IMG/VR virus record: IMGVR_UViG_3300042922_000911
Span: 31,823 to 95,822 of that record
Source of the DNA: a virus
Length of the DNA: 64,000 nucleotides
Direction: 5' to 3' (one strand)
A program made the translations under genes and the position numbers. The notes under the pieces are model-generated. The model had not been told where the DNA came from. It saw nothing but the letters and a program-made list of their open reading frames with translations, and made no database searches. Shown piece by piece: positions 12,731 through 27,648 of this stretch; position 1 is the stretch's first letter; the number at the start of each line of letters is the position of its first letter.

Positions 12731-13447
12731 ATGACCACCTCGAAAGCCGCCAAGGCCACGACCCCCGCGCCGTTCTCGCTCGCCACTGACCTGACCGACG
12801 AGTTCGCCAAGGGCGTTCAAAACGTCGTCTGGAACGGCGACACGCTGAACCTCAAGCACTCCAACGACCAGAAGGGCATGGCCACGGGCAAGATCCTCGG
12901 GCTGTACTTCCACTGGCCGGTGACGGACTACAACGACATTTACAACAGCTACCACCTGGGCGTGCCCTACTTCCCGAAGCACGACAAGGCGGGTCTGACC
13001 AAGAACCTCAACTTCTCGCAGCTCGGCAAGCAGCTCTGGAAGCGCAACACCGGCCACATCGGCATGAGCCTGTGCGGCATGTGGGATGCCTCGATGGGGC
13101 CTGACGGCAAGCTGCACGCCGGGCCGTTCCCGCTGAAAGACGCTCAGCTCAAGGTCGCCGCGCGCGCCGGCGCGGAGTTCTGCATTCTGCACGGCATCGA
13201 CCCGCGCGGCAGCCACCAGGCCCCCGAGTACGCCTACAAGGGCGGGGCGCTCGTTCCGACGGGCAAGACCATCTGGATTCCCAACGTGACCGATCACGCC
13301 TGGTTCGGCAAGCGCGACGGGTACGGGTCGTGGGATTGCGGCCCCTACACGCCCATCATCTTGCAGCAGCTCTTCAAGGACTACGACGAGCTCAAGAAGA
13401 CCCCCGAGGCCGATCGGAAGTTCCTGTACCGGGAGCTTCTGAAATGA
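12731..13447 (+). CDS. endolysin: N-acetylmuramoyl-L-alanine amidase
   Basis: This 238-residue protein cleaves the amide bond between muramic acid and the peptide stem at lysis. The visible signature is LGLYFHWPVTDYNDIYNSYH near residues 55-75 with the first zinc histidine, HIGMSLCGMWDAS near residue 110, and a C-terminal DHAWF...DGYGSWDCGP segment supplying the second histidine and a cysteine, as in T7/PGRP-type zinc amidases. There is no signal peptide or cell-wall-binding repeat, so export relies on the upstream holin-like protein. Confidence 0.75.
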   Translation: MTTSKAAKATTPAPFSLATDLTDEFAKGVQNVVWNGDTLNLKHSNDQKGMATGKILGLYFHWPVTDYNDIYNSYHLGVPYFPKHDKAGLTKNLNFSQLGKQLWKRNTGHIGMSLCGMWDASMGPDGKLHAGPFPLKDAQLKVAARAGAEFCILHGIDPRGSHQAPEYAYKGGALVPTGKTIWIPNVTDHAWFGKRDGYGSWDCGPYTPIILQQLFKDYDELKKTPEADRKFLYRELLK

Positions 13448-14154
13448 GCGCGCTCGACGAGCTCAAGCGCGCCCGGCTGACCTCGGTTCTGATCGTCGCG
13501 GCCTTCCTCGTCGGCCTGGTCGTCGCCTCGCTGGTCAAGTGCCATCTGCCACCGCCCGGCGATCGCCAGCCCCTTCGCCCCCTGCCCGCTGTGACCGACG
13601 GCCCCGCGCCGTCGGCCACGCCCCCCGCGGCCACCGCGACGGCGGCCGTCAAGACAAGGGTCGTGATCGAGCGGCCCGTGCCCCGGCCGGTTTCCTGTGT
13701 AACAAGCATCCCGCAGAATGTTACACAGGAAGCCTCGAGCGGGGCGCACCTCCCCGACCCGGCGATCGCCCCCGGTGCGTCGGGCATCCTCGCTCAGCCG
13801 CTCGAGGTGGAACGCATCATCATCGAAACCGAGGGCATCAGCACGGCCGTCGCCCCGGTGCCGACCCCGCCTCCCCCTGTGTACGTTACAACGGATGCCC
13901 GGCCGGGTGCCTTCGGCGTCCTGGTCGGCACCATGCCGGGTGTCGTGGCGCTCGACTACCAGTTCGCTCGAGGCGAGCTTTTGGGGCACACCATCGGGGC
14001 CTCAACAATCGTTAACGGGCGAATGTTGGGCGTCGGTGGCGGAATTTCCCTAGTCGAAATCCACGACCGTTTATACTTGGGCGCAGGCGCATACCAAGAG
14101 TATAAGCTGATTCCCGACCCTGGCCTGTACATCGGGGCGGGGTGGCGTTTTTAG
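13444..14154 (+). CDS. spanin-like anchored protein (tentative)
   Basis: This 236-residue protein overlaps the amidase stop by four bases. It has an N-terminal membrane anchor (LTSVLIVAAFLVGLVVASLV, residues ~12-31), a long proline/alanine/threonine-rich linker, and a C-terminal glycine-rich beta region (residues ~160-236) resembling a small outer-membrane-like domain. An anchor, a periplasm-spanning linker and an outer domain next to holin and endolysin suggest a unimolecular or inner spanin. An inverted pair of TTACACAGGA repeats sits in the linker. Family assignment is inference from topology. Confidence 0.45.
   Translation: MSALDELKRARLTSVLIVAAFLVGLVVASLVKCHLPPPGDRQPLRPLPAVTDGPAPSATPPAATATAAVKTRVVIERPVPRPVSCVTSIPQNVTQEASSGAHLPDPAIAPGASGILAQPLEVERIIIETEGISTAVAPVPTPPPPVYVTTDARPGAFGVLVGTMPGVVALDYQFARGELLGHTIGASTIVNGRMLGVGGGISLVEIHDRLYLGAGAYQEYKLIPDPGLYIGAGWRF
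13692..13731. repeat. inverted pair of TTACACAGGA repeats inside the spanin-like gene
   Basis: TTCCTGTGTAACA at 13692-13704 and TGTTACACAGGAA at 13719-13731 form a perfect 13-base inverted repeat with a 14-base loop. It is in frame and encodes SCVTS and VTQEA in the low-complexity linker. Confidence 0.85.
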
Positions 14155-14167
14155 AAGGGGGCCTCCC

Positions 14168-14563
14168 ATGGCGAACGAGAAGAAGTACGACCCGATCCTC
14201 GCTATCTGCGGCTTGGGCGGCGGCCACATGGAAGCCACCATTCAGGGCAAGCGCGCGCTCTTGTCGGTCGTCAACGGCGATCGCGTGAGCCTGAACGTCG
14301 AGGGCACCGTGCCGGCCGATTCGGCCCCGGCGACCTTCCGCCTGGTCGAGGGCGTTCGCACGCTCTCGGTTGTCTCGACGGTCGAGGCCTTCGTCGCCCC
14401 CTACGAAGAGAACGTGGGCACGCCAGCGGCCGGGGCCGTCCACGGCGAGCGGTTCCACTTGCAGGCCGGCGTGCGCCGCGAGCTGCCGTGGGGCACCAAC
14501 ACGATCGCGGTTCAGGCCGTTGGCGCTGTGGCGGGCAAGGTCTACGCCGAAGGTCGCCTGTAA
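14168..14563 (+). CDS. small beta-rich protein, unknown
   Basis: This is a 131-residue protein with a GAAGGGGG ribosome site. It contains alternating hydrophobic residues typical of a beta sandwich (MEATIQGKRALLSVVNGDRVSLNVEG) and ends VAGKVYAEGRL. There is no signal peptide or enzyme motif. Lying between spanin-like and coiled-coil membrane genes, it may be a late virion or lysis accessory. Confidence 0.5.
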   Translation: MANEKKYDPILAICGLGGGHMEATIQGKRALLSVVNGDRVSLNVEGTVPADSAPATFRLVEGVRTLSVVSTVEAFVAPYEENVGTPAAGAVHGERFHLQAGVRRELPWGTNTIAVQAVGAVAGKVYAEGRL

Positions 14564-15057
14564 TGCCGGGGCCGATTGCGCCCGGCGGCGCGGCCCTTTC
14601 GGAGATCACGCCCTACGTTCTGGCCGTCTACGGCCTGATCGGGGGCTTGTTCGTTTTCATCTTCAACGAGCAGAAGAAGCGAATCGACACGGCCGAGGCC
14701 AAGATCACGACGATCGAGCGCGACGCCACCGACAAGCGCGACGCGCTGCGCCGGGAGCTGCGCGACGAGCATGACAAGTTCACCGCCAAGCAGGCCACGG
14801 AACACAAGGAGCTGATCGCCAAGGTCGAGAAGGACCGCAAGGAGCTTGAAGAGAAGCTGGACAGCCACATGAAGACCGTTGTCGAGCGGCTGGACGGCAT
14901 CAAGGAAAGCATGAACACCTGGGCGATCAACCTGACGCGCGACTACGTGACCCGCCAGGAGTTCCGCGAGCTGATCGCCGTGGTTCCTCGGGCCGCTGGC
15001 GGCCACGCGCAACCCGGTCATACCGGCCCGCTCCCCGGATCTGGCCATGGGACCTAA
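14563..15057 (+). CDS. membrane-anchored coiled-coil protein (Rz/i-spanin-like)
   Basis: This 164-residue protein starts at an ATG overlapping the previous stop (TAATG). It has a single N-terminal membrane segment (ITPYVLAVYGLIGGLFVFIF, residues ~14-33) followed by a long charged coiled coil (EQKKRIDTAEAKITTIERDA to ~residue 120). This is the classical layout of an inner-membrane spanin or holin-accessory protein. With the preceding spanin-like gene it may complete lysis. The 3' end overlaps the next gene by 11 bases. Confidence 0.5.
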   Translation: MPGPIAPGGAALSEITPYVLAVYGLIGGLFVFIFNEQKKRIDTAEAKITTIERDATDKRDALRRELRDEHDKFTAKQATEHKELIAKVEKDRKELEEKLDSHMKTVVERLDGIKESMNTWAINLTRDYVTRQEFRELIAVVPRAAGGHAQPGHTGPLPGSGHGT

Positions 15058-15535
15058 AAACGAAGAGCAAATTTACACCGACATTCAAACCAGGCTGGTG
15101 CGCTTTTTTGTCGAGGGCGTGCCGCAGGCGTTCACCCGTCAGATCGCGGTGAACGCCGCTCTTCGTGCGTCTGGGCGCTCAAAGGCGCGTGGCTCGGCCA
15201 TCCCGGCAAAGCTTCGGGAGTGGCGCGACACCATCCAGCTCTTGTACCTCGCGGCCGTCATGGAGGCAGATCCGAAGTATGAAGCGTTCCCGCGAAGTGG
15301 CGAGTTTACAGGCCCCGTCGAGTTAAGCATTGTAATCTGGGGGAGCCAGGCCGACGGCACCAACGTCCTGAAAGAGATCGAGGACGCGCTGAATTTTGTT
15401 GCGTACCCTGACGATAGGGTTATTGTTAAGGGGGGCTTCGCTTTCGGCGACCGTATGCTATCAGAACGAGGGGGTTTGTTGCGTAATGTAACATGTGTGC
15501 GGCAAGGCGTTGACATATCGGTTCAGTTTCGGTGA
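15047..15535 (+). CDS. rusA: RusA-like Holliday-junction resolvase
   Basis: This 162-residue protein shows the RusA pattern: FFVEGVPQAFTRQ at the start, a WRDTIQLL helix, FTGPVELSIVIW, then GTNVLKEIEDALNFVAYPDDR, which holds the catalytic acidic residues and lysine. RusA dimers cut four-way junctions made during replication and recombination. The last ~50 codons use many TTG, TTA, GTT and AGG codons, unlike the G/C-ending codons of its neighbours, and this drift continues into the following noncoding region. It is the last gene before the replication module. Confidence 0.7.
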   Translation: MGPKNEEQIYTDIQTRLVRFFVEGVPQAFTRQIAVNAALRASGRSKARGSAIPAKLREWRDTIQLLYLAAVMEADPKYEAFPRSGEFTGPVELSIVIWGSQADGTNVLKEIEDALNFVAYPDDRVIVKGGFAFGDRMLSERGGLLRNVTCVRQGVDISVQFR

Positions 15536-15806
15536 TAGTAACAGTGTGGCAACGGTTGCTCGTTACCGAATCAGTATTTACAACGGTTTACGCACCAAGT
15601 TAGTGACAAAAAAAGGAGCCGACCTTCGTCTGCCCCTTTCGGAATGACCAGTTTGGTGTTAGCTTTGGTTTACCTTGAACAAATAAAGAAGCCCCCCGCA
15701 TCGGCCCCTTAAACCTGACGCGGGAGACTTCTTCGGAAAAGGCCACCACAAACCCATTCGGTGCAGGATCTAGCGCAAGCTAGGTTCAGCCTCGGACGGC
15801 TTTGTG

Positions 15807-15834
15807 TTGGTTAAACCACAGATCAAGGTATACC
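15807..15834 (+). promoter_or_regulatory. possible operator-promoter of the replication module
   Basis: TTGGTT (15807-15812) and TATACC (15829-15834) are spaced 16 bases apart and fit a weak sigma70-type promoter. The -35 is embedded in the 11-base palindrome TGGTTAAACCA and the -10 in GGTATACC, so a dimeric repressor could bind here. No repressor gene was found in the window. Confidence 0.35.
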
Positions 15835-15875
15835 ACGGCTTCGCGCCAAATTCAACCGTCGATTCAACGAAAAGC

Positions 15876-15899
15876 CGGGGGGCGGCCCCCCGTAAGGAG
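15876..15899 (+). promoter_or_regulatory. G6/C6 hairpin abutting the ribosome binding site
   Basis: CGGGGGG (15876-15882), loop CGG and CCCCCCG (15886-15892) make a very stable seven-base-pair stem that ends one base before TAAGGAG (15893-15899). The start codon is at 15908. The stem could modulate translation of the first replication gene. Confidence 0.5.
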
Positions 15900-15907
15900 T
15901 TCGGAAG

Positions 15908-16225
15908 ATGGCAGATTCGCAAGCGAGCAACCAGGCCTCGGGCAGTTTCGCCCAGGTCAGCAACGAGTTCCTTGCCGCGCTGATGAGCGTGCAGTTCACC
16001 GCCCGTGAGCTGCGCGTCATGCTCTACTGCGTGCGCCAAGGCGGGTACGACAATGACAAGCTCCGGCTGTGTCAGGCAACCTCCCTGTTTCCCCACAACG
16101 CCAAGTCCACCATCGACCGGCTGGTGAAGGGGCGCGTACTGGTCGCCAACGGCAACCGCTACGACCTCAACACCGACCCCTCGACGTGGGCGCTCGACGT
16201 GGTGAAGGCAAGCAGGTCCGCATGA
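15908..16225 (+). CDS. winged-helix replication/regulatory protein (O N-terminal-like)
   Basis: This 105-residue protein has FAQVSNEFLAALMSVQFTARELRVMLYCVRQ followed by a helix-turn-helix-like stretch, CQATSLFPHNAKSTIDRLVKGRVLV. That order is the one seen in the DNA-binding head of phage replication O and related winged-helix proteins. It overlaps the next gene by four bases, so the two are translationally coupled. It could bind the iterons in the next gene or act as a regulator of the module. Confidence 0.6.
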   Translation: MADSQASNQASGSFAQVSNEFLAALMSVQFTARELRVMLYCVRQGGYDNDKLRLCQATSLFPHNAKSTIDRLVKGRVLVANGNRYDLNTDPSTWALDVVKASRSA

Positions 16226-17523
16226 CCGAGCCCCGCTCGCCGGGGCCGCAACGAGAGGACGGATTCACCCCGGTCACACACCATTTGCTTGAGCTTTGGT
16301 GCATGCTCGGCCTCACGTCGCGACAGTGGCCGATCCTGATCCACGTCTGCCGGATCACCTACGGGTGGGACAAGACGGAGCGGGTCACGGATCTGTACTC
16401 GATCGCGGCCGCCGTGAACCAGAAGCCCGACAAGGTGAAAGACACCCTCGCCGTCATGGCCGAAGGGCGTCTGCTCGACCTGGACGGCGTTCCCTACCGT
16501 CGCAACACCTTCACCATCGGCATCAACAAGCACTATCCCGAATGGCGAGGCGACTTTGAGCTGCCTCGGCCGGTTCTGCTGCGCTACGCAGCCGAAGACG
16601 GCTACATGCTCGGCGACACGATCCTCAGTCGGCCCGTCGAGCAAACTCCCCAAAATGGGGAGTTTGAAAGTCCCCAAAATGGGGAGTTTGCCGCCGATCG
16701 CCCTCAAAGCGTGACGGCAAGCGCCTCGGCGGAAAGTCCCCAAAATGGGGAGTTTACTCCCCAAACCGGGGAGTTCCAAAGTCCCCAAAATGGGGAGTTT
16801 GAAAGTCCCCAAAATGGGGAGTTCCTGAAAACCGAAGTCACCAGCCGCATTGCCGGAAGTCCCCAAAATGGGGAGTTTGAAAGTCCCCAAAATGGGGAGT
16901 TTGAAAGTCCCCAAAATGGGGAGTTTGGTGACGGCAAACCCGCTGATAGTGCGGGTTCCAGCTCGCCTAAAGAAAGGTACTTAGTAAGTAGTAACCATCA
17001 TGGCGACGGCGATCGCCTTTCAGGCGCGGGCGATCTCGCGCATGCGGGCGATCCCGCGCATGAGGGAGGCCCGGCGATCGGTCCTAATGGAGCTTGGGCC
17101 AAGGAGGGCTATTCACTTTCAGGCCAACCGGAACCCCCCACCCCCCTACCCCCCGCCCCCCTGGTCGGCTGGAAGCGGCTGTGCGAGGTTTTCGCGAAGC
17201 TTCACGAACGCGGCCCCTACCCGATCGACCCGCATCAAGCCGAGCTGCGTGCGACGTGCGTCGAGTACGAGGTCACGGGCGACGAGTTCGCCGACGTGCT
17301 GGAAGCGTGGGCCGCGAAGCGGCGGGAGCGGCGGGCGGATACCCGCATCGGCTCGCCGGAATTGGCGAAGCGGATTCTTCGCGACGTGTTGAATGAGCGT
17401 GCTGCGAAAGCGCAGCGCGAGGCGAACGGCACCGAGAGGGTGCCGGGCAATAGGCTCACCGCCGAAGACTTCAAGGCTCGCGCCTTGGAGAAGAAGCGGC
17501 GGGCGAAGGAGGGATTGGCATGA
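16222..17523 (+). CDS. replication initiator (lambda O-like) carrying internal iterons
   Basis: This 433-residue protein has an N-terminal winged helix (residues ~15-110: HHLLELWCMLGLTSRQW, RITYGWDK, then a helix and EGRLL..GVPYRRNTF) matching phage replication protein O. Residues ~142-235 are a low-complexity run of nine SPQNGEFE-type octapeptides, encoded by palindromic DNA iterons. The C-terminal ~120 residues hold a WKRLCEVFAKL...RATCVEYEV helical region and a basic end, RALEKKRRAKEG, that could contact the loader. Initiator, iterons inside its gene and a downstream loader mirror lambda O-ori-P. It overlaps both neighbours by four bases. The start at 16222 is chosen because it makes the ATGA junction and excludes an upstream extension without a ribosome site. 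Confidence 0.75.
   Translation: MTEPRSPGPQREDGFTPVTHHLLELWCMLGLTSRQWPILIHVCRITYGWDKTERVTDLYSIAAAVNQKPDKVKDTLAVMAEGRLLDLDGVPYRRNTFTIGINKHYPEWRGDFELPRPVLLRYAAEDGYMLGDTILSRPVEQTPQNGEFESPQNGEFAADRPQSVTASASAESPQNGEFTPQTGEFQSPQNGEFESPQNGEFLKTEVTSRIAGSPQNGEFESPQNGEFESPQNGEFGDGKPADSAGSSSPKERYLVSSNHHGDGDRLSGAGDLAHAGDPAHEGGPAIGPNGAWAKEGYSLSGQPEPPTPLPPAPLVGWKRLCEVFAKLHERGPYPIDPHQAELRATCVEYEVTGDEFADVLEAWAAKRRERRADTRIGSPELAKRILRDVLNERAAKAQREANGTERVPGNRLTAEDFKARALEKKRRAKEGLA
16646..16927 (+). repeat. nine palindromic iterons, candidate replication origin
   Basis: CCCCAAAATGGGGAGTT occurs eight times plus one variant (CCCCAAACCGGGGAGTT). The C4 tracts begin at 16648, 16672, 16738, 16759 (variant), 16783, 16807, 16861, 16885 and 16909. 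Adjacent copies have a 24-base period, and each copy is a dyad around AAAAT (the first reads AAACTCCCC-AAAAT-GGGGAGTTT). They are in frame in the initiator gene. By analogy to lambda ori these are initiator-binding sites. Confidence 0.85.
16939..17000 (+). promoter_or_regulatory. AT-rich unwinding element candidate next to the iterons
   Basis: A CCCGC/GCGGG hairpin at 16939-16955 is followed by the stretch at 16965-17000 (CTAAAGAAAGGTACTTAGTA and on), the most AT-rich piece of the gene. Iterons followed by an AT-rich segment is the standard order of an iteron origin. Confidence 0.55.
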
Positions 17524-18464
17524 CCCCCGAGAAGAAGCCCCCCAAGGGGCGCGTGTTGAAGTTCCCCGGCACCAACCCCGGTGACGTGGTTTCCAAGCAG
17601 CTCCCGCCCGACACGGGCAGCACCCCGGCGACGCCGATCGCCGACCATGCGGTGATGGCGCTGCGCTACAAGGCCCGCATGGACTTGAAGCCCTGCCCCG
17701 ACTGTGGCGAGGCCCCCGTCGAGAAGCCGATCGGCCCCGGCGGCTCCCCGGTGCCGGTGTACTGCGATTGCCGGATGCAGCGGTACGCCGAGGCCGAGGC
17801 CACCCGCAACCGCGAGGTGCGCCGGATCGGCTGGCTGAACAAGTTTGAGCGGGTGCTGCCCGAGCGTCAGCACAAGGGGCTGACCCTCGACGCCCTCGAC
17901 GACCTCCCCGAAACCCGGCGGGGCGTCGTGGTGGCCCAGGCCTTCATTGCCGGGGCCGACGAACACCTCGCCAAGGGCCACGGCCTGTTTTTCTACGGCG
18001 ACCCCGGCACGGGCAAGGGCACGGTCAGCAAGTGCCTCGCCGGGGAGCTGGAAGCGAAGGGCTACCGGGTAGTTTGGGCCAAGCTGGAAGACCTGACGCA
18101 GCGCAGTTTCCGCAAGGACGCCCCCGAGCTGATGGAGGCGCTTTACAGCGCGGATCTCGTCGTGATCGACGAGCTCGGCTACACCGGCGAGAACCGGGCG
18201 AGCCTGAAAGTGTTGTTCCCGGTGATCGACTACCGCTTTGAAACCGGCAAAAGCACTATCTGCACCGCGAATTTCGACGTGTACGCGCTGCAAGCCCGCT
18301 ATCACTCATTCCTGATGCGTGACGAGGGCGAAACCCACGACACGGCGACGGTTCAAGTCGATCGGTGGCGAACCCGCATGAATCCGCCTCGAGCCGTGCC
18401 CTTCAAGTTTGAGGGCCGCGATCTTCGCGACGTGTACGAGTACAACCCTTTCGAGGGGCTGTAA
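17520..18464 (+). CDS. AAA+ helicase loader (DnaC/IstB-like)
   Basis: This 314-residue ATPase overlaps the initiator by four bases and should load the replicative helicase, as lambda P or DnaC do. It has an N-terminal zinc-binding segment (CPDCGEAP...VYCDCRMQRY, residues ~58-85), a Walker A-like GDPGTGKGT near residue 160, Walker B LVVIDELGY near 216, and a sensor-type TANFD. The Walker A has GKG where GKT or GKS is normal; the adjacent threonine may take over. No helicase gene is in the window, so it may recruit the host DnaB. Confidence 0.75.
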   Translation: MTPEKKPPKGRVLKFPGTNPGDVVSKQLPPDTGSTPATPIADHAVMALRYKARMDLKPCPDCGEAPVEKPIGPGGSPVPVYCDCRMQRYAEAEATRNREVRRIGWLNKFERVLPERQHKGLTLDALDDLPETRRGVVVAQAFIAGADEHLAKGHGLFFYGDPGTGKGTVSKCLAGELEAKGYRVVWAKLEDLTQRSFRKDAPELMEALYSADLVVIDELGYTGENRASLKVLFPVIDYRFETGKSTICTANFDVYALQARYHSFLMRDEGETHDTATVQVDRWRTRMNPPRAVPFKFEGRDLRDVYEYNPFEGL

Positions 18465-18524
18465 CAATGACCACCAGACCTTCGGGGCCTGTCGCTGTGG
18501 CCCAAAACGAAGAGGGACGCGACA

Positions 18525-19139
18525 TTGAGCGCAAGGAACAACTGCAACTTCATCTGCCGCCTCGCCACCGACCCCGAGGTGCGCTATTTCGAGAACGGCA
18601 ACAGTGTCACCCGGTTCCGCGTGGCGATCGTCGCCGGGTGGGGCGAGTACGAAGAGGCCAATTTCTTCGATGTGGAGTTCTGGGGCCAGCGCGGCGAAGC
18701 TCTCGCCGAGCGGTTCAAGACCGGCGGGCAGATCGGCATTTCCGGCGAGCTGACGATTAACAAGTTCGACGGCAAGGACGGGGAAGTTCAAAAGCCCCTG
18801 ATCAAGGGCCAGGACTGGACTTTCGCCGGGGAAACCGAGGGCAAGGGCGGCGGCAACGGCGGCGGCGGCGATCGCCCTCAAACCCGCTCGCAGGGCGGTT
18901 ATAACGGTCAAAACCGGGGTAATTCCGATCGCCCCCAACAGCACCAGCGCGGCGGCGGCTCGCAGGGCGGGAACCGGGGCTATAACAACCAGCGCGGCGG
19001 CGGCCGTCAGGGTGGCGGGAACGGCTACCAGCGGGGCGGCCCGCAGCGCGGCAAGAACCTCGACCAGGGCAACGCGGAGGCCGATGCAGCCTTCGCCGGG
19101 ATGCCCGAGGACTTGGGGGCGTGGCCCGAGGCCCGCTAA
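18525..19139 (+). CDS. ssb: single-stranded DNA-binding protein
   Basis: This 204-residue protein starts at TTG (18525), after an AGAGGG ribosome site; no ATG upstream in this frame fits. Residues 1-105 form an OB fold: NFICRLATDPEVRYFENGNSVTRFRVAI, ANFFDVEFWGQRGEALAERF and GQIGISGELTINKFD. A glycine/glutamine/arginine-rich tail of ~75 residues follows. The C-terminus, PEDLGAWPEAR, is not the usual acidic DDDIPF tip, so contacts with host repair partners may differ. It closes the replication module. Confidence 0.85.
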   Translation: MSARNNCNFICRLATDPEVRYFENGNSVTRFRVAIVAGWGEYEEANFFDVEFWGQRGEALAERFKTGGQIGISGELTINKFDGKDGEVQKPLIKGQDWTFAGETEGKGGGNGGGGDRPQTRSQGGYNGQNRGNSDRPQQHQRGGGSQGGNRGYNNQRGGGRQGGGNGYQRGGPQRGKNLDQGNAEADAAFAGMPEDLGAWPEAR

Positions 19140-19155
19140 GCTCATAGGTATTTTG

Positions 19156-19165
19156 TTACACAGGA
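19156..19165 (+). repeat. TTACACAGGA copy serving as thyX ribosome site
   Basis: The copy reads TTACACAGGAG and lies 10 bases before the ATG at 19176. It occupies most of the 36-base gap between ssb and thyX. Confidence 0.8.
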
Positions 19166-19175
19166 GAGCCGGAAA

Positions 19176-20201
19176 ATGGCTGATACCGTTCATTTCGACA
19201 CCTTCCACCAGCCTAGCACGGCGGGGTTCTTGTGCCCCGTCTGTCAGGCGTTCTTCGGGGCCTCGACCCCGAAAGCCGCGCTGGAACAGCACGCTCGCTT
19301 CCACGTTCTCGGCGAGGCCCCCGTGCCTCACCGGGAAACGGCGGCGATCGCCCTGATCGGCCGCGAGATCCCCGTGCTGCCGGATGGCGGGTACGTGAAG
19401 CTCGTTGACTTCATGGGCAGCGATCAGCGCATCATCGACGGGGCGCGGGTGTCTTTGGTCGATGCGGCCGCCAAGAAGACGCAGAGCCTCGCCGGGCTGA
19501 TGGCCTACCTGATCCGCAACGCTCACACCAGCCCGCTCGAGCATGTGGTCTTCACGTTTGAGGTCTACTGCCCGATCTTCATTGCCCGCCAGTGGTTCAG
19601 GCACCGCACATGGTCGTTCTCCGAATGGTCAGGGCGTTACGGCGTGCTGCCCGACGCCTTCCACGTCCCTGACGACGCGCTTCTGTGCGGCCCGTCGGCC
19701 ATGAACAAGCAGGGCTCGGGCGCGCAGCTCGACGCCGGCAGCCGCTCGATGGTTCGCGAGCTGCTGACCCGCGTGCAGCGCGCGGCGTTCGATGCCTATC
19801 ACACCCTGCTCGGCCTGGGCCTCGCTGGCGAGAACGCCCGCATTCTGCTCCCCGTGGGCACCTACACCAAGTTTTACGCGACGGTGGACTTGAACAACCT
19901 GCTCAAGTTCATTGCCCTGCGCGAGGACGGCCACGCGCAGGCGCAAATTCAGGTCTACGGCGCGGCCCTGCGGCAGATTGCCGAGGCCGTGGTGCCGGTG
20001 GCCATGGACGTGTTCAAGCGTCAGGTCCTCAACGGGGCGCGCTTCAACGAGGGGCAGAAGGGCGTGTTGCTCGCCCTCGCGGCCGTCGCCGGCCGTCAGG
20101 CGATCGTCGAGCAGATGGACGCCGCGGGGCTCACCAGCAAGAGCGAGCGCGGCGAGCTGCTGGCGAAGCTCGGCATGGAAGCCGAGGGGGAGGCCGCATG
20201 A
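19176..20201 (+). CDS. thyX: flavin-dependent thymidylate synthase with N-terminal zinc finger
   Basis: This 341-residue protein converts dUMP to dTMP using FAD, NADPH and methylene-tetrahydrofolate. The ThyX signature is at residues 142-155, RHRTWSFSEWSGRY (canonical RHRxxSxNExSxRY with serine for asparagine). The segments TSPLEHVVFTFEVYCPIFIARQ and LPVGTYTKFYATVDLNNLLKF are also typical. Ahead of the core lies a C2H2-type finger (C20, C23, H39, H43), which ThyX proteins do not normally carry; it may tether the enzyme to DNA or a partner. It overlaps the next gene by four bases, heading the deazaguanine operon. Confidence 0.9.
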   Translation: MADTVHFDTFHQPSTAGFLCPVCQAFFGASTPKAALEQHARFHVLGEAPVPHRETAAIALIGREIPVLPDGGYVKLVDFMGSDQRIIDGARVSLVDAAAKKTQSLAGLMAYLIRNAHTSPLEHVVFTFEVYCPIFIARQWFRHRTWSFSEWSGRYGVLPDAFHVPDDALLCGPSAMNKQGSGAQLDAGSRSMVRELLTRVQRAAFDAYHTLLGLGLAGENARILLPVGTYTKFYATVDLNNLLKFIALREDGHAQAQIQVYGAALRQIAEAVVPVAMDVFKRQVLNGARFNEGQKGVLLALAAVAGRQAIVEQMDAAGLTSKSERGELLAKLGMEAEGEAA

Positions 20202-20989
20202 CCGCTTTCCCCGTCCCTTGCCAGCGGATCTACCTCGCCGGGGCGCAAGCGGCCTATGCCGACGACGTGCGCGGCCGGTTGCTGCTGTCGAGCTACGGCG
20301 ACAAGAACGTGACGCGCGTCATGGCGGCGCTCGAGGCGGGCGGCTGGCTGATTGATTCGGGTGCCTACACAGCCTGGTCGAAAGGCCGGGCGATCGACCT
20401 CGACGGCTACATGAGCTTTCTCGATCAGGCGCTCGGGGCCTACCCCGTCGATGGGTACTTCGCCCTGGACGTGATTCCCGGCCGCGTGGGCGGGATGCCG
20501 ACGGCCGACGAGGTTAAGCGGGCGTGGGAAGCGTCCATGGTCAACCTCGACCGGATGCAGGCTCGAGGCTTCGCGCCGATTCCGGTCTTCCACTTCGGGG
20601 CGGATTGGGCACGGCTCGACGAGCTCATAGCCGGGGGGTTCGACGTGATCGCCCTCGGCGGCACAGTCAAGAAGCCCCGGCCCGCCGTGCTGGCGTGGCT
20701 CGACGAGGCGTTCGCCCGCTACCCCGCGCAGAAATTCCACGGCCTCGGCTGCACCAGCGAGGCCCAACTTACCCGAATCCCCTTCTGGTCGTGCGATTCG
20801 ACTTCGTGGCTGACCCTCGCCATGTTCGGCGTGGGCGGCAACGAATGGCTGCTTCGTGGGCGATCGTCGAGGGCTCTTCGCCGCATCGGCCTGGTCGCCT
20901 TCGACGACCTCGCATCGAACGCGGCCCCCCGCAAACCACGCGCCCGGCGCAAGACGGTGACGCAGCTCCCCCTAGCCTTTGAGAGGTGA
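20198..20989 (+). CDS. dpdA: DpdA-like DNA guanine transglycosylase
   Basis: This 263-residue protein resembles the tRNA-guanine-transglycosylase-like DpdA proteins of phages, which swap guanine in DNA for a 7-deazaguanine base. Visible features are a TIM-barrel-like order with IDSGAYTAWSKG (residues ~50-60), a conserved aspartate in GYFALDVIPG (~88), PVFHFG (~130), VIALGG (~153), FHGLGCTS (~186) and FWSCDSTSW (~200). The direct neighbours QueD, QueE and QueC make its substrate preQ0. It is shorter than the bacterial Dpd-island DpdA, which is usual for phage forms. Confidence 0.75.
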   Translation: MTAFPVPCQRIYLAGAQAAYADDVRGRLLLSSYGDKNVTRVMAALEAGGWLIDSGAYTAWSKGRAIDLDGYMSFLDQALGAYPVDGYFALDVIPGRVGGMPTADEVKRAWEASMVNLDRMQARGFAPIPVFHFGADWARLDELIAGGFDVIALGGTVKKPRPAVLAWLDEAFARYPAQKFHGLGCTSEAQLTRIPFWSCDSTSWLTLAMFGVGGNEWLLRGRSSRALRRIGLVAFDDLASNAAPRKPRARRKTVTQLPLAFER

Positions 20990-20993
20990 ACCC

Positions 20994-21446
20994 ATGACCA
21001 CGACGACCCCTTACGTCGCGACCGTGTGGCGAGAAGTCGAGTTTCACGCCAGCCACCAGCTTCCCTACCACGACGGCAAATGCGCGCGGCCCCACGGCCA
21101 CAACTTCAAGATGCGCGTGAGCGTCACCGGCCCCGTGCAGGACGACGACCCCGCGAATCCCGAGAGCGGCATGGTGATCGACCTCGCCAAGCTCGGCGAC
21201 CTGATGAAGACGGCCGGGGAGCTGTACTTCGACCACCACAACATCAACGAAACGACGGGCATCCTGTGCCCGACCTCCGAGCGGCTGGCGTGGTACGTCG
21301 GCATCTACGCCAAGCACCACATCGAGGCCCGCGACGGCGCGGCCTACGTGTCGAGCGTGAGCGTCCAAGAAACCGACCGATCGGGGGCGATCGTCGCCTT
21401 TGTCGGCAAGGGCGTCGAGAGCGGGAGGGAAGCGGCATGGGTGTAA
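20994..21446 (+). CDS. queD: QueD: 6-carboxytetrahydropterin synthase
   Basis: This 150-residue enzyme converts dihydroneopterin triphosphate to 6-carboxytetrahydropterin, the second step to preQ0. Zinc ligands and the catalytic cysteine are visible: H21 in VEFHASHQL, C30 in DGKCARPHGHNF and H34/H36. FDHHNIN (~residue 81) and the late VQETD glutamate complete the active site. The first enzyme of the pathway, FolE (GTP cyclohydrolase I), is absent here, so host FolE is presumably used. It has a GAGAGGTGAA ribosome site and overlaps queE by ten bases. Confidence 0.9.
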   Translation: MTTTTPYVATVWREVEFHASHQLPYHDGKCARPHGHNFKMRVSVTGPVQDDDPANPESGMVIDLAKLGDLMKTAGELYFDHHNINETTGILCPTSERLAWYVGIYAKHHIEARDGAAYVSSVSVQETDRSGAIVAFVGKGVESGREAAWV

Positions 21447-22108
21447 GCGTCAGCTACCCCGTCGCCGAGCTCTTCGCGAGCTTCCAGGGCGAGGGCGTCT
21501 TCGCTGGTCAGGGGGCCTTGTTCGCCCGCTTGATGGGCTGTGACGTGAAGTGCTGGTTCTGCGACCAGGCCGAAACGTGGCGACCCGACGCCGTGAAGCT
21601 CGACGGCATCCGGCACATGCACGGCTACGAGATCGCCGAGGCGCTTCACGCCCTCGTCGGTGGCGACTATGCCAAGATGCCCGAGCGGGTGATCGTCACC
21701 GGCGGCGAGCCGACCATTCACGATCTCGCGCCGCTCTTCCACGCCCTCGACGACATTGGGCTGAACGTCCATGTCGAAACCGCCGGGCACCGGCCGCTGC
21801 CCCGCGGGGCGCATTGGGTGACGGTCGCACCGAAGCTGGTGCCCAAGTACCCCGGCATCAACCGCGACACGCTGCTCGCGGCCCATGAGTTCAAGTGCGT
21901 GGTGACGGAACCCGGCGACATGGCCCGCTATGACACGCTTTTCGCCGAGCATCCGGTCTTTAACCACCTCAAGACGCCCGTTTACTACATTCCCGAGGCA
22001 TCGAAAGTCAACGATGGGGCCATTCTCGCGGCGATCGCCGAGCGGGTCGGCCGGGGCGGCCGGTATCGCGCCGGGGTGCAGCTCCACAAGCAGTTTGCGG
22101 TCAGGTAG
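21437..22108 (+). CDS. queE: QueE: 7-carboxy-7-deazaguanine synthase (radical SAM)
   Basis: This 223-residue enzyme contracts 6-carboxytetrahydropterin to 7-carboxy-7-deazaguanine. The N-terminus is typical (VAELFASFQGEGVFAGQGALF), followed by the cluster motif CDVKCWFC (C35, C39, C42; Cx3Cx2C) that binds a 4Fe-4S cluster and SAM. RVIVTGGEPTIHD (~residue 88) is the GGEP motif, and FNHLKTPVYYIPEA lies near the end. It sits between queD and queC with overlap or short spacing, so all three are co-translated. Confidence 0.9.
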   Translation: MGVSVSYPVAELFASFQGEGVFAGQGALFARLMGCDVKCWFCDQAETWRPDAVKLDGIRHMHGYEIAEALHALVGGDYAKMPERVIVTGGEPTIHDLAPLFHALDDIGLNVHVETAGHRPLPRGAHWVTVAPKLVPKYPGINRDTLLAAHEFKCVVTEPGDMARYDTLFAEHPVFNHLKTPVYYIPEASKVNDGAILAAIAERVGRGGRYRAGVQLHKQFAVR

Positions 22109-22113
22109 GAAGG

Positions 22114-22809
22114 ATGAACCCCATGAACATTCGTCGCAGCGTGGTTGTGCTGTCGGGCGGGCTGGATTCGACGACGTGCGCCCTGATGGCGAACGCCCTG
22201 ACCTCGGTCGCGGCCGTGGTGCATTTCGACTACGGCCAGCGGCACGGCGTCGAGCGGGAATGCTTCGACTATTGGGCCAAGCGGCTCGCCGTTCCGGCCT
22301 ACGTCATTCCCGTGCCCTCGCTCGAGCTGGTGGGGGCGTCGGCCCTCACGGCCGGGCCGTTGGCCCTCGACCCCAACGAGCGGCACCCGCAGAACGCGAC
22401 GCTGCCGGCGAGCTTCGTGCCCGGCCGCAACCTCGTCTTCCTCACCCTCGCAGCCGCGCTCGCCGAAAAGCTCGGCGCGTCGGAGGTCTGGACGGGCGTG
22501 TGCGGCAACGACCACGCGGGCTACCCCGACTGTCGCCCCGACACGATGGAAGCCTTGCAGCTCGCCATCCGGCGCGGCATGGGCACCGACGGAATCAAGC
22601 TGATCACGCCCTTCATTCATCAGGACAAGGGCTCGATCTGGAAGGCGGCCGAAGCCACTGGCCACCTCGCCGAGATCATCGAGCATACGCATACCTGCTA
22701 CCGGGGCGAGCGCAAGCGGCGGCTCCCGTGGGGCTACGGTTGCAGCCGGTGCATGGCCTGCGACGAGCGCCGCGCGGGCTTCAACGCCCATTTCGGCGAT
22801 CGGAGGTAG
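22114..22809 (+). CDS. queC: QueC: preQ0 synthase
   Basis: This 231-residue enzyme uses ATP and ammonia to turn 7-carboxy-7-deazaguanine into preQ0. The PP-loop SGGLDST is at residues 14-20, FDYGQRHGVE near 40-50, and NLVFLTLAAALAE near 110. The zinc cluster is C-terminal: HTCYRGER then CSRCMACDERRAGF. The ribosome site GGTAGGAAGG precedes the chosen ATG. There is no QueF (to preQ1) and no amidotransferase fusion, so preQ0 itself is the expected product delivered to DpdA. Confidence 0.9.
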   Translation: MNPMNIRRSVVVLSGGLDSTTCALMANALTSVAAVVHFDYGQRHGVERECFDYWAKRLAVPAYVIPVPSLELVGASALTAGPLALDPNERHPQNATLPASFVPGRNLVFLTLAAALAEKLGASEVWTGVCGNDHAGYPDCRPDTMEALQLAIRRGMGTDGIKLITPFIHQDKGSIWKAAEATGHLAEIIEHTHTCYRGERKRRLPWGYGCSRCMACDERRAGFNAHFGDRR

Positions 22810-22811
22810 CC

Positions 22812-23045
22812 ATGGACACGCAGATCGATCGGGTTGAAATGACCGTGCATGGTGTCGTTCGCGACGACCACGCCGCCGTTCCTTTCCGCGTGACGTTCTC
22901 GGGGCGCGGGGCGGTGGATGCCTCGCTGTTCTTCCCCGATGGGGTCGATGAAGAGGCCTTGTACCTGCCCATGCTGCACGCGGCCGTCATGGCGGCGTGG
23001 AAAGCCAGGCCCAAGAAGGCGACAGCGGCGAGGGGGGCGGATTGA
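22812..23045 (+). CDS. small protein in the deazaguanine operon, unknown
   Basis: This 77-residue protein starts two bases after queC, with GGAGG upstream, and its stop overlaps the methyltransferase ATG. It is a small beta-then-helix protein (DRVEMTVHGVVRDD...PFRVTFSGRG...FFPDGVDEEALYLPMLHAAVMAAW). It could be an accessory of the modification enzymes, an inference from position only. Confidence 0.5.
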   Translation: MDTQIDRVEMTVHGVVRDDHAAVPFRVTFSGRGAVDASLFFPDGVDEEALYLPMLHAAVMAAWKARPKKATAARGAD

Positions 23046-24358
23046 TGCTACGGAAGGGACTTGTCACCCGAAACGACCGCTGGGAGCTTCATTACGGCGA
23101 TTGCCTGAAAGACGGCATTCTCGCCTCGATGCCCGACGAGAGCGTTCACAGCGTCGTTCTCGACGGCCCGTATGGGTTCGACCCGAAGAAGGACGACTAT
23201 CAGGCCGGCGACGACGCCCCGGCAACCGCTGGCGAGGGGAGCTGGGACCAGGCCGACGCCCGGCGCGACATGTCAGACGCCGCCCAGGCCGACGACCTCA
23301 CCGAGGCCGAGCGCCTGCGGAACCGGCTGACCCGTGGGGTCAACTACCTCGACGGCGGCGATCGCCTCACCACCGACAACGAAACGTGGGGCGTGGATTC
23401 GGTCGTCGGCGGCTACGCGGCCGAGAAGGGCATGGTCGAGCTGCCCCGCTACATCATGCCGCCGGAAGCCATGTTCAACTTTCAGCTTTGGTGCGCCGAG
23501 TGGGCGCGCGAAGACTTGCGGCTGCTCAAGCCCGGCGGCTTCCTGCTCGCCTTCTGCTCGACGAAGTGCTATCACCGGCAGGCCGTGGGCATCGAAGACG
23601 CGGGCTTTGAGGTGCGCGACATGATCCACTGGATCTACGGCCAGGGCATGCCCAAGGGCACCATGGCCTGGAAGGCCTACGAACGCAGCTCCAAGGCCCC
23701 CGCCGGCCTGAAAGCCAAGAAGAAAGGCACGATCCTCACCACGCCCGAAACCGACGAGGGCCGCGCGCTCTTCGGCTGGCACACGGGGCTCAAGCCCGGC
23801 CATGAGCCGATCGTCGTCGCCCGCAAGCCGTTCAAGGGCACCATCTACGGCAACATGCAGGCGCACGGCACCGGGGCGTTCAACATCGAGGGCTGCGCGG
23901 TGCCCGGTGGCCTCGACCAGGACGACCGGCACCCGTCGAACGTGATTGTGACCCACAGCCCCGAGTGTGTGAAGGGCGCGGCGTGCGTGCCGTGGTGCCC
24001 CGTGCCGCAGATGGAGGCGCGCTTCGCTGGCGCGTCGGGCTACTTCAAATGCCTGTATTGGGAGCCGGGCGAGTGGGAATGGCAAGTGGCGAGCCGCTAC
24101 GTGCCCAAGCCCGGCAAGAAAGAGAAGGGCGCGGGCCGGGAACACCCGACCGTGAAGCCCGTGGCCCTGATGAAAGAGCTTACCCGGCTTGTGACCCCTC
24201 GAGGGGGCCGCGTGCTGGATCACTTCGGCGGGTCAGGCACGACGGGCGTCGCTGCCATCGACGAAGGCTTTTACCCCGTGCTGGTTGAGCGTGCCCCCAA
24301 GTACCTACGCATCATCCAGCAGCGTTGCGGGAGCGCACAGCTCCCCCTATTCAAATAG
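23045..24358 (+). CDS. DNA N4/N6-amino methyltransferase (beta class)
   Basis: This 437-residue protein has the motif order IV to target region to I that defines the beta class. The catalytic motif is DGPYGF at residues 40-45 (usual DPPY, here DGPY). LRLLKPGGFLLAF follows, and the SAM-binding end carries HPTVKPVALMKELTRLVTP and VLDHFGGSGTTG near residue 400. It probably methylates adenine or cytosine amino groups in phage DNA. It ends the thyX-dpdA-que run, and no matching restriction enzyme is present. The target sequence cannot be read from the protein. Lengthy inserts between motifs suggest a dedicated recognition region. Confidence 0.8.
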   Translation: MLRKGLVTRNDRWELHYGDCLKDGILASMPDESVHSVVLDGPYGFDPKKDDYQAGDDAPATAGEGSWDQADARRDMSDAAQADDLTEAERLRNRLTRGVNYLDGGDRLTTDNETWGVDSVVGGYAAEKGMVELPRYIMPPEAMFNFQLWCAEWAREDLRLLKPGGFLLAFCSTKCYHRQAVGIEDAGFEVRDMIHWIYGQGMPKGTMAWKAYERSSKAPAGLKAKKKGTILTTPETDEGRALFGWHTGLKPGHEPIVVARKPFKGTIYGNMQAHGTGAFNIEGCAVPGGLDQDDRHPSNVIVTHSPECVKGAACVPWCPVPQMEARFAGASGYFKCLYWEPGEWEWQVASRYVPKPGKKEKGAGREHPTVKPVALMKELTRLVTPRGGRVLDHFGGSGTTGVAAIDEGFYPVLVERAPKYLRIIQQRCGSAQLPLFK

Positions 24359-24385
24359 GCCCGAGGCCGGGCCGGGAGGACCACC

Positions 24386-25033
24386 ATGGAGAACCACAAC
24401 CCCTTAACCCTCGACGAGCTCGCCGAAGAGCTCGCGCAGACGAGAACCGCGTGCGACGAGCTGGAAGCAGCCGCCGGCCGCTACGCGAGCATCTTCGACC
24501 GTTTCATGCTGCCCTTAGCTGCCGCCGCGGGCATCCCCGGCGTGCAAGACCCCGAGGTAGTCTTGCCCGAGGCGATCGCCCGGCTTGTTACACAGGACGG
24601 GATGATCGACCGGCGGAACGACCGGCTAAACCAGCCTGACGACGGCTGGAAGGGTGCATGCATGGCCCTCGCCCAGGTCGTCGCCGACAACCCGCGCTTG
24701 GGCCACCTGATGCCCATAGGGCTCGAGGTCAGCGTCACCGACCTCATTACACAGGCGATCACCTACCTGTCGCGCGACCTCGACAATGCCGAGGCCGAGG
24801 TGAAGAGCCTGCGCGAGCGCCTGCAAAGCGAGCAGCAAGCCCACGGCGGCACGTTCGCGCGCCTGAAAGCGGCGCAACGAGAGGCGGGCGCGGCCTACGA
24901 CATTCTCGGCGACGCCTCGCTCGCGGTGAACGTGGCGAGTGACGTGCTTCGCAGCGTTCGCGACGGCGTGCTGCGCGAAGACGTGCCCGAGGGCGTGGCA
25001 GAAACGGCCGTTCCCGAGGCCCCTGAATCGTAA
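24386..25033 (+). CDS. coiled-coil protein, unknown
   Basis: This is a 215-residue helical protein with a GGAGG ribosome site. Residues ~5-40 and ~125-165 are heptad-rich (LDELAEELAQTRTACDELEA; LDNAEAEVKSLRERLQSEQQ). It holds one exact TTACACAGGA (24588, VTQD) and a one-mismatch copy (24747, ITQA). There is no known family. It sits between the methyltransferase and the ribonucleotide reductase. Confidence 0.55.
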   Translation: MENHNPLTLDELAEELAQTRTACDELEAAAGRYASIFDRFMLPLAAAAGIPGVQDPEVVLPEAIARLVTQDGMIDRRNDRLNQPDDGWKGACMALAQVVADNPRLGHLMPIGLEVSVTDLITQAITYLSRDLDNAEAEVKSLRERLQSEQQAHGGTFARLKAAQREAGAAYDILGDASLAVNVASDVLRSVRDGVLREDVPEGVAETAVPEAPES

Positions 25034-25215
25034 CATAGGGGACAGAAACGCCCCCTTGCTCGACGCCCCAAGCGGCCACAGCAGCGCCTTTCGGCCGCGC
25101 TGGCCGGTTATGTTACTTGCATTGTTGAGCATTGATAAGTTTCCAGTCGAAAGTTTGCATACTAGCGCCTGAGTGTTTTACATTGGGAAACATTCGGCAG
25201 GAAGGAGCCACCCGC
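25034..25215. other. leader region of the ribonucleotide reductase gene
   Basis: This 182-base gap holds a CAGCGC/GCGCTG hairpin inside a larger GGCC-rich inverted repeat (about 25070-25105), then an AT-richer stretch with an extended -10-like TTGCATACT about 60 bases before the gene. The ribosome site GGAAGGAG precedes the ATG. No cobalamin riboswitch consensus could be recognised despite the B12-dependent product. Confidence 0.45.
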
Positions 25216-27648
25216 ATGATCACGGCAAACGCGCAAAGCGTGCTGGAAAAGCGGTATTACCTGAAAGACGACAGCGGCGTTCTGATTGAGAAGACGCCCG
25301 AGGACCTGTGGGGCCGCGTGAGCCGCGCCGTCGCTGAACCCGAGCGGGTTTACAGCGCCGAGGCCTACGACCTGGCCCAAGCCAACTTTTACGGCATTCT
25401 GCTCGCGGGCGACTTCACGCCCAACAGCCCGGCGATCGCCAACGCGGGCGCGCGCACCGGCCAGTGTTCGGCGTGCTTCGTGCTGCCGCTCGAGGACGAC
25501 CTGGGCGGCATCTTCGACACCGTGAAGCACACGGCACTCATTCACCAGACTGGCGGCGGCACCGGGTTCAGCCTGTCGCGCCTGCGGCCGAAAGACGACT
25601 TCGTGCGCTCGACCGGCGGCAAGTCGAGCGGCCCGCTCACCTTCGCCGACGTGCTGAACGCGGCCACCGAGAGCATCAAGCAGGGCGGCATGCGCCGGGG
25701 TGCCAACATGGGCATGTTGCGGATCGATCACCCTGACATTCTCGACTTCATCGAGTACAAAGACGACCTGACCAAGCTCACCAACTTCAACATCAGCGTC
25801 GCCGTTACACAGGCGTTTCTCGACGCCTACGACGCCGGCACCAGCTACGACCTGATCAACCCGCGCACCGGGGCCGTCACCGGAAGCCTCGACGCCCGCA
25901 CGGTCATGAAGAACATCGTTCACCACGCCTGGAAGACGGGCGAGCCGGGCCTTGCCTTCATCGACCGCATGAACGAGTATTGCCCGGTGCCCTGGATGGG
26001 GCAGTACGAGGCGACCAACCCGTGCGGCGAACAGCCCCTTTTGCCCTACGAGAGCTGCAACCTCGGCAGCATCGACCTCGCGAAGTTCGTCGTCGAGACA
26101 CCGACCGGCCCCGCGCTCGACTGGAACCGGCTGGCGTGGGCGATTCACGTCGGGACGCACTTCCTCGACAACATCGTGTCGATCAACCAGTTCCCGATCC
26201 CCGAGCTGAAACGCATGAGCGACCTCACGCGCAAGATCGGCCTCGGCGTGATGGGATGGGCGCGGCTGCTGCTGCTGCTCGGCATCGGTTACGGCAGCGA
26301 CGAATCGCTCTCGCTCGCCCGTCAGGTGGCCTCGTTCCTCGACTACCATTCCAAGCTCGCGAGCATCGAGCTTGCCAAGTGGCGGGGCAGCTTCCCGGCA
26401 CGCGCCGGGCACGAAGACGAGTTCAATGCGTTCTTCGACCGCATCTGCGCCGAGCGTCAGGCCAAGCCCGACCGTCACCCGTCGTGCGACTACATCAGCC
26501 TCGCCGAGCTGCAACGGCAGTACGGCATCAGGAACAGCAACACGACGACCGAGGCCCCCACGGGCACGATCTCGATTATCGCCGGCACCACGGGCGGCAT
26601 CGAGCCGATCTTCGCGCTGGCCTTCAAGCGGTGGCAGGCCGACATGCACATGCTGGATTCGGAACCGACCTTTGAAGCGTTCCTCGCCAAGCGCGGGTTC
26701 GACGCCGAGCGCCTGGTCGAGCTGCTGCGTCAGGTGGACGAGAACCACGGGACGCTGACCGGCCTCGACGTGACCCCGTACAGCGCCCATGAGCAAAGCA
26801 TCATCGACGCGGCCCGCCCCATCTTCACGGTGGCCCATGACGTGACGCCGCGCCAGCACATCGAAACGCAGGCGGCGTGGCAGGACTTCAACGATAGCGC
26901 CATCAGCAAGACCGTCAACTTCGACGAGAGCGCGACCGAAGACGACGTGGAAGAGGTGTACAAGCTCGCCATCCTGCGCGGCTGCAAGGGCGTGACGGTT
27001 TACCGCAACAACAGCCGCAAGCACCAGCCGCTCAGCGTCAGCGAGAAGCCCGCGGCCGACCTTGCGGCCCCCGAGGTGGCGGCGGCGATCGCCCGCGCGG
27101 CCGACCGCATTCTCGCCACCGAGCCCCGCGAGCGTCGCACCGACCTGTACGGGTACACCCGCGAGGTCAAGACCGGGGAGGGTAACTTGTACCTGACGCT
27201 CAACTACGACGAGCAGGGGTTGCGCGAGGTGTTCGGCAACCTCGGCCGCTCGGGCGGCACGCTCCACAGCCTCACCGAGGCGATCGGCCGGCTGGCCTCG
27301 CTCGCCTTGCAGTTCAACGTGCCCCGCGACGAGGTGGCGCGTGCCCTCGTCGGCATCCGAGGCCCCGAGCCGGTCGGGTTCGGCCCTCGACAGATTCTCT
27401 CGATCCCCGACGCCATCGGCAAGGCGATCGCGTCAGCTCCCCGTTCCCTTAACGGTGAGCTGCCCACGATGGAAGCCCCACGCGAGGCGATCGCCAAGCA
27501 GCCGGTTCCCGTCGCTGCCGAGGCCAAACGGCTCGAGGCCGTCGCCGTCTACGGCAAGTCGCCCGATTGCCCTGAATGCAGCTCTCGCCTCGACTTCGGG
27601 GAAGGCTGCATGACGTGCCATTCGTGCGGCTACTCGAAATGTAGCTAG
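25216..27648 (+). CDS. nrdJ: class II (B12-dependent) ribonucleotide reductase
   Basis: This 810-residue enzyme reduces ribonucleotides to deoxyribonucleotides with adenosylcobalamin, in either oxygen condition. Visible are FTPNSPAIANAG, QCSACFVLPLEDDL (first redox cysteine), QTGGGTGFSLSRLRP, the active-site NPCGEQPLL near residues 268-275, and the effector/phosphate loop TEAPTGTISII. The C-terminal zinc ribbon CPECSSRLDFGEGCMTC...CGYSKC is the re-reduction tail typical of class II enzymes. A large ~90-residue domain before it is also typical. The ATG at 25216 is chosen for its ribosome site. Cobalamin must come from the host; no B12 genes are here. Confidence 0.9.
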   Translation: MITANAQSVLEKRYYLKDDSGVLIEKTPEDLWGRVSRAVAEPERVYSAEAYDLAQANFYGILLAGDFTPNSPAIANAGARTGQCSACFVLPLEDDLGGIFDTVKHTALIHQTGGGTGFSLSRLRPKDDFVRSTGGKSSGPLTFADVLNAATESIKQGGMRRGANMGMLRIDHPDILDFIEYKDDLTKLTNFNISVAVTQAFLDAYDAGTSYDLINPRTGAVTGSLDARTVMKNIVHHAWKTGEPGLAFIDRMNEYCPVPWMGQYEATNPCGEQPLLPYESCNLGSIDLAKFVVETPTGPALDWNRLAWAIHVGTHFLDNIVSINQFPIPELKRMSDLTRKIGLGVMGWARLLLLLGIGYGSDESLSLARQVASFLDYHSKLASIELAKWRGSFPARAGHEDEFNAFFDRICAERQAKPDRHPSCDYISLAELQRQYGIRNSNTTTEAPTGTISIIAGTTGGIEPIFALAFKRWQADMHMLDSEPTFEAFLAKRGFDAERLVELLRQVDENHGTLTGLDVTPYSAHEQSIIDAARPIFTVAHDVTPRQHIETQAAWQDFNDSAISKTVNFDESATEDDVEEVYKLAILRGCKGVTVYRNNSRKHQPLSVSEKPAADLAAPEVAAAIARAADRILATEPRERRTDLYGYTREVKTGEGNLYLTLNYDEQGLREVFGNLGRSGGTLHSLTEAIGRLASLALQFNVPRDEVARALVGIRGPEPVGFGPRQILSIPDAIGKAIASAPRSLNGELPTMEAPREAIAKQPVPVAAEAKRLEAVAVYGKSPDCPECSSRLDFGEGCMTCHSCGYSKCS

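Follow-up and report, generated by a model that had tools for sequence, protein, structure and literature searches.

A stretch of 64,000 nucleotides (nt) of viral DNA, positions 31,823 to 95,822 of the IMG/VR record IMGVR_UViG_3300042922_000911 (hereafter the window), carries an array of nine palindromic repeats, or iterons, inside a gene for an O-type replication initiator. We predict that this array and the gene that holds it are very probably the lambda-type replication origin of the phage. The anatomy and the gene family are directly visible in the DNA: the array follows the part of the gene that encodes the DNA-binding domain, and AT-rich DNA and a helicase loader gene come after it, as in the O-ori-P region of lambda. 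An earlier interpretation of this DNA, made without database searches (the sequence-only reading), had proposed both this layout and an iteron origin within an O-like gene; the gene family, the position of the array, the AT-rich segment, the neighboring loader and single-strand DNA-binding protein (SSB) genes, and the conservation of the dyad at the DNA level all agree with that proposal.

The nine dyads, each of 13 base pairs (bp), occupy positions 16648–16921 of the + strand in groups of two, four and three; eight are exact copies of CCCCAAAATGGGG and one is CCCCAAACCGGGG. They start at 16648, 16672, 16738, 16759, 16783, 16807, 16861, 16885 and 16909, with start-to-start spacings (24, 66, 21, 24, 24, 54, 24 and 24 nt) that are all multiples of three. 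Consequently, all of them lie in a single reading frame of the gene, which encodes 433 amino acids (aa), and each one encodes (S/T)PQ(N/T)GEF. The symmetric core of the iteron is CCCCA-N3-TGGGG, and the repeat unit is 24 nt long. The copy number and the common frame had been correctly described in the sequence-only reading; the 17-mer given there, CCCCAAAATGGGGAGTT, is not fully symmetric by itself. Iteron 1 has perfect 10-bp arms flanking AAAAT; the variant iteron CCCCAAACCGGGG (16759–16771, + strand), in which the center is changed (N to T) and the arms are kept, has perfect arms of 7 bp, and in the remaining seven the arms extend for 5 bp before one mismatch. When up to two mismatches were allowed, the window contained nine core matches, against a mean of 1.63 and a maximum of 5 in 100 shuffled sequences, and no further exact copy was found in the remainder of the 95.8-kb record (95,822 bases). 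In the two gaps of the array, the best resemblance to the iteron was 8 of 13 positions, a level reached by 24% of the shuffles, and we do not claim degenerate iterons there. A hairpin or cruciform role for the array was also considered and discarded, because the good folding of the single strand is expected of any dyad and counts as no evidence.

The initiator gene (16222–17523, + strand) encodes an N-terminal winged helix, an iteron-encoded linker and a helical C-terminus. Its N-terminal region matches the Phage_rep_O family (PF04492) over residues 11–108 (E = 7.4e-12; 46.1 bits against a curated cut-off of 28.7), and the protein also matches the O-like family phrog_277 (E = 5.6e-13). The likeliest start is the ATG at 16222, which overlaps the preceding stop codon as ATGA, although the longest open reading frame (ORF) begins with a GTG at 16069. 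A structure model of the N-terminal domain (mean predicted local distance difference test score, pLDDT, of 76) consists of helices followed by two strands and is that of a winged helix; the PDB structures matched were for the most part winged helices of the MarR type (best E = 4.6e-3, template modeling score of about 0.5), which supports the fold class only. The model of the full-length protein is of low confidence (mean pLDDT of 41, too poor for a fold search); in it, residues 121–314, which include the iteron-encoded stretch, appear unstructured. The alignment of the N-terminal domain was too divergent to serve as a search query.

Downstream of the array, an AT-rich segment (16955–17008, + strand) represents a candidate unwinding element. 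Its minimum of 37.5% G+C (GC) content, over the 40 nt at 16962, compares with about 66% for the phage, and the segment begins about 35 bp past the last iteron core. The perfect 7-bp inverted repeat AACCCGC-N7-GCGGGTT (16937–16957) is located between the last iteron and this segment, and its predicted fold is weak (z = −1.6); no Rfam family was matched within 13000–20000. The next gene (17520–18464, + strand) encodes a DnaC-like helicase loader whose N-terminal part contains cysteine (phrog_50, E = 7e-29; IstB_IS21, E = 4e-10), as the sequence-only reading had anticipated. No close relatives of this loader were found in IMG/VR, and phages yielded only distant ones. The loader gene is followed by the gene encoding the SSB (18525–19139, + strand; PF00436, E = 1e-15).

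The repeats could have been selected as protein rather than as DNA, that is, as SPQNGEF octapeptides forming a functional linker or interaction surface, the palindrome being incidental. The single frame and the near-identical octapeptide of the nine copies fit this idea, as does the occurrence of PQNG or PQDG in other O-type genes. However, when 2.9 million viral contigs were scanned for the core, it was found at the same 24-nt spacing in eight O-type genes and also in several other winged-helix genes (HTH_36 in both of those tested), and across these phages the core DNA is read in all three frames. In L009–L011, L014 and L015, one gene reads it both as IPKMGR (or IPKMGK) and as SPQNGE/D; in L030 it is read as PNWG, PDWG and PQFG, and in further O-type genes the core yields RPQNGD or SPQNGV. 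Retention of the octapeptide with loss of the palindrome in relatives, proposed earlier as the observation that would count against an origin, was sought, but the opposite pattern emerged: the palindrome persists while the frame and the peptide change. The outer arms covary as well: among 30 distinct iterons, complementarity at four positions was 25/30, 22/30, 16/30 and 16/30, against 9.8, 10.1, 8.0 and 7.7 expected when the sides were shuffled, counts that overstate independence because the sequences share some ancestry and were retrieved through the core, although the outer positions lie outside the search pattern. Most of the signal is contributed by the other winged-helix genes, the excess in the O-type group alone being small (6/11 against 4.2 and 8/11 against 4.2). 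In the window itself, the codons of the repeat (AGT, CAA, AAT, GGG and TTT) are rare in the phage, with a probability of 1.3e-6 per copy under its codon usage, perfect 5-bp arms arise in only 0.4% of random synonymous codings of SPQNGEF, and the variant iteron alters the peptide while keeping the arms. Because the core is kept in three frames, the outer arms covary and the repeat codons run against phage usage, these comparisons support selection on the DNA dyad and argue strongly against selection on the peptide only, an explanation that we regard as highly improbable.

It is also conceivable that the dyads are operators through which the O-type protein, or a 105-aa winged-helix protein encoded directly upstream of the initiator, regulates transcription of the replication operon, with the origin elsewhere. 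Dyads with the CCCCA-N3-TGGGG core do lie immediately before small winged-helix-like ORFs in several other viral contigs. Here, in contrast, the array is deep in a coding region and not at a promoter, it follows the DNA-binding domain as in ori-lambda, and it has an AT-rich segment and a loader gene downstream; we therefore consider the operator explanation improbable. Finally, the array might be a relic or plain tandem repeat, produced by slippage expansion of one ancestral iteron and devoid of present function. The near-identical 24-nt units are compatible with recent duplication, and two non-repeat gaps interrupt the array, but the initiator frame is intact, the arms are kept in all units including the single diverged one, and the array sits where the O-type origins of many phages sit, so that this last possibility seems extremely remote.

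Several observations weigh against the assignment of the array as a lambda-type origin. The alignment revealed no clear match of the initiator C-terminus to lambda O beyond the N-terminal domain; a whole-protein tblastn, the sole dedicated test of C-terminal homology to lambda O, gave no match, and close relatives of the initiator were found neither by this search in phages nor by a pattern search in IMG/VR. The AT-rich segment is present but modest: 204 of the 95,783 40-mers of the record are equally AT-rich, and it has 22 peers among the 23 clusters of 40% GC or less. The minimum of the detrended GC skew is at 13,877, 2.8 kb upstream of the array, although gene content may confound this measure. 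When the codon frequencies of the remainder of the O gene are used, the probability of the repeat codons is only about 3e-4 per copy. In addition, the iteron copies arose by duplication, and hence the codon identity among the nine does not amount to nine independent tests.

By analogy with lambda, the origin would operate as follows. The N-terminal winged helix of the initiator would bind as a dimer to every CCCCA-N3-TGGGG dyad of the gene that encodes it, and the bound dimers would wrap and bend the iteron DNA. The wrapped iterons, together with negative supercoiling, would open the AT-rich segment just downstream, and the C-terminal part of the initiator would recruit the DnaC-like protein encoded next, which in turn would load the DnaB helicase of the host; no phage DnaB was noticed, without a systematic search for one. 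The repeated octapeptide would be mainly a by-product, serving as a flexible linker, and the array could expand without disrupting the initiator only in steps divisible by three bases, such as the 24-nt unit seen here.

The 105-aa protein mentioned above is a second, stand-alone O-type winged-helix protein (15908–16225, + strand; PF04492, E = 3.5e-7, above the curated cut-off). Its gene overlaps the start of the initiator gene (ATGA), and the two are likely to be translationally coupled; BLASTP of its N-terminal domain against that of the initiator produced no alignment. A tentative and rather unlikely proposal is that two coupled O-type proteins run the origin of this phage, whose capsid is SPO1-like and whose host is probably a cyanobacterium, the DNA-binding-only 105-aa form competing or heterodimerizing with the full-length initiator on the nine dyads and thereby setting the frequency of initiation. 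Further upstream, a RusA-like Holliday junction resolvase is encoded at 15047–15535 (+ strand; PF05866, E = 1.5e-5).

Regarding the phage, its major capsid and portal proteins are nearest to those of SPO1-like phages, with about 30–35% identity (record G000; L049, 13931–15391; window 46479–48164), and a tail sheath is present. Judged from these genes, the phage is a mosaic of an SPO1-like virion and lambda-like initiation. The highly iterated palindrome HIP1, GCGATCGC, occurs 73 times in the window against 2.4 expected from base composition, 51 of them as GGCGATCGCC, for example around 17008; this content suggests a cyanobacterial host (PMC4390886).

Other features of the window were also recorded. 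A dispersed repeat, GTTACACAGGAAG, is present in 12 exact copies on both strands, between and inside genes (882, 12576, 12637, 13720, 28553, 34106, 48326, 52235 and 52268 on the + strand; 5495, 12626 and 46374 on the − strand), and the looser pattern TTACA[CT]AGGA matches the + strand at more than 20 places. A C5 cytosine methyltransferase of 568 aa (31547–33253) matches PF00145 in two pieces, and its match to phrog_116 stretches 291 profile positions across 561 residues, which suggests an insert of about 270 aa. The cluster at 19176–27648, which includes genes for ThyX, a PTPS/QueD-like protein, QueC, an N6/N4 methyltransferase and ribonucleotide reductase, is possibly involved in 7-deazaguanine modification of DNA. 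In other contigs (L013, L024, L025, L038, L041, L043, L044 and L045), CCCCA-N3-TGGGG dyads occur close to or immediately before small ORFs (about 100–120 aa) for winged-helix-like proteins; these dyads may be autoregulatory operators or small origins. Similarly, two contigs from Clostridiales metagenome-assembled genomes (L020 and L021) contain four to five apparently noncoding copies of CCCCAAAATGGGG, possibly plasmid or phage origins.

To place the array among known origins, we surveyed 19 O-type genes, lambda O and 18 others. Most of them have dyads with a 5-nt, often A-rich, center after the N-terminal domain, and in most of those with dyads the 40 nt of the gene that are richest in A+T fall within the dyad stretch or just past it. 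The half-sites are TCCCTC in lambda and Oslo, TTAGC(C/T) in HK97, phiES15 and PSTCR7, GGTAA or TTACC in P22, phiEt88 and Midgardsormr38, TTGGT in GBK2, and TCTCT/AGAGA or AGACA/TGTCT in Morganella, Pm34, Pocitis76 and Bas106. An exact detector (5-bp arms, 5-nt spacer) found no clear dyad cluster in phiARM81mr, R656, MII_001, CBP1, RCIP0034 and SPN3UB; therefore, the survey does not establish the layout as universal. The order O then DnaC has precedents in the Morganella, SPN3UB and Bas106 phages. PF04492 was also sought in 385 genomes belonging to a single class, to which L019 had led, and gave one weak match below the cut-off; the exact CCCCA-N3-TGGGG core was not found in the literature searched.

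The closest parallel in design is lambda (J02459, 38686–39585), in which the origin likewise lies within the initiator gene, past the part for the PF04492 domain, with dyad iterons that have a 5-nt A-rich center (AAAAC), an AT-rich segment 3′ of the array and the loader gene next. In lambda each iteron is itself an inverted repeat to which O binds as a dimer, and this binding opens up the AT-rich DNA next to the iterons (PMC5043065, PMC7466680). The palindrome therefore does not set the array apart from lambda, and neither does the octapeptide, which the sequence-only reading had described as distinctive, given that lambda iteron 1 (ATCCCTCAAAACGAGGGA) encodes IPQNEG, with PQN in the same register as in the window. 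Lambda differs in having four iterons with another half-site and spacings of 20, 24 and 23, which place them in different frames; a single frame is therefore not required of iterons, and we attribute the one found here to the copying of a 24-nt unit within a gene whose reading frame has to remain open. Its loader is P and not a DnaC-like protein, and the C-terminus of O is not recognizably related in sequence.

The eight O-type genes from IMG/VR (L026, L029, L031, L033, L035, L037, L046 and L047) share the core, its spacing and the PQNG/PQDG frame; PF04492 was confirmed in L026, L035 and L037 (E = 3e-23 to 3e-27), which the other five resemble in sequence. These genes have two core copies instead of nine, a different C-terminus and variable outer arms (e.g. 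GTCCCC/GGGGAC, TCACCCC/GGGGTGA). Extra in-gene iterons that lengthen the O protein are also known from lambdoid Stx-phage origins, with six iterons instead of four (PMC7466680), although with the lambda half-site and fewer copies than here; nine is the highest number among the O-type genes examined. The initiator of Geobacillus phage GBK2 (KJ159566), a low-GC phage of a Firmicute, has six TTGGT-N5-ACCAA dyads with A-rich centers, five of them in one frame, and a VGKTPT-type repeat peptide, but a different half-site. The RepA_N initiators of plasmids and satellites (PMC7145576) also have an N-terminal domain that forms a dimer, but belong to another protein family, and the PLE iterons are in a noncoding region.

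A CCCCA-N3-TGGGG dyad repeated within a winged-helix gene marks a candidate initiator and origin in several phage groups, which eases origin calling from sequence in uncultivated phages. The phage, which is at least 96 kb long, combines a lambda-type O/ori module with an SPO1-like portal and capsid, and its HIP1 content points to a cyanobacterial host; the module therefore travels further than the lambdoid phages. The array in the window is a real feature and, as a predicted origin, a mostly ordinary member of the lambda O/ori kind, whose design, palindromic repeats included, was already known; its particulars are the nine copies in one frame, the coupled 105-aa O-type protein and the HIP1-rich phage with an SPO1-like capsid in which it is found.
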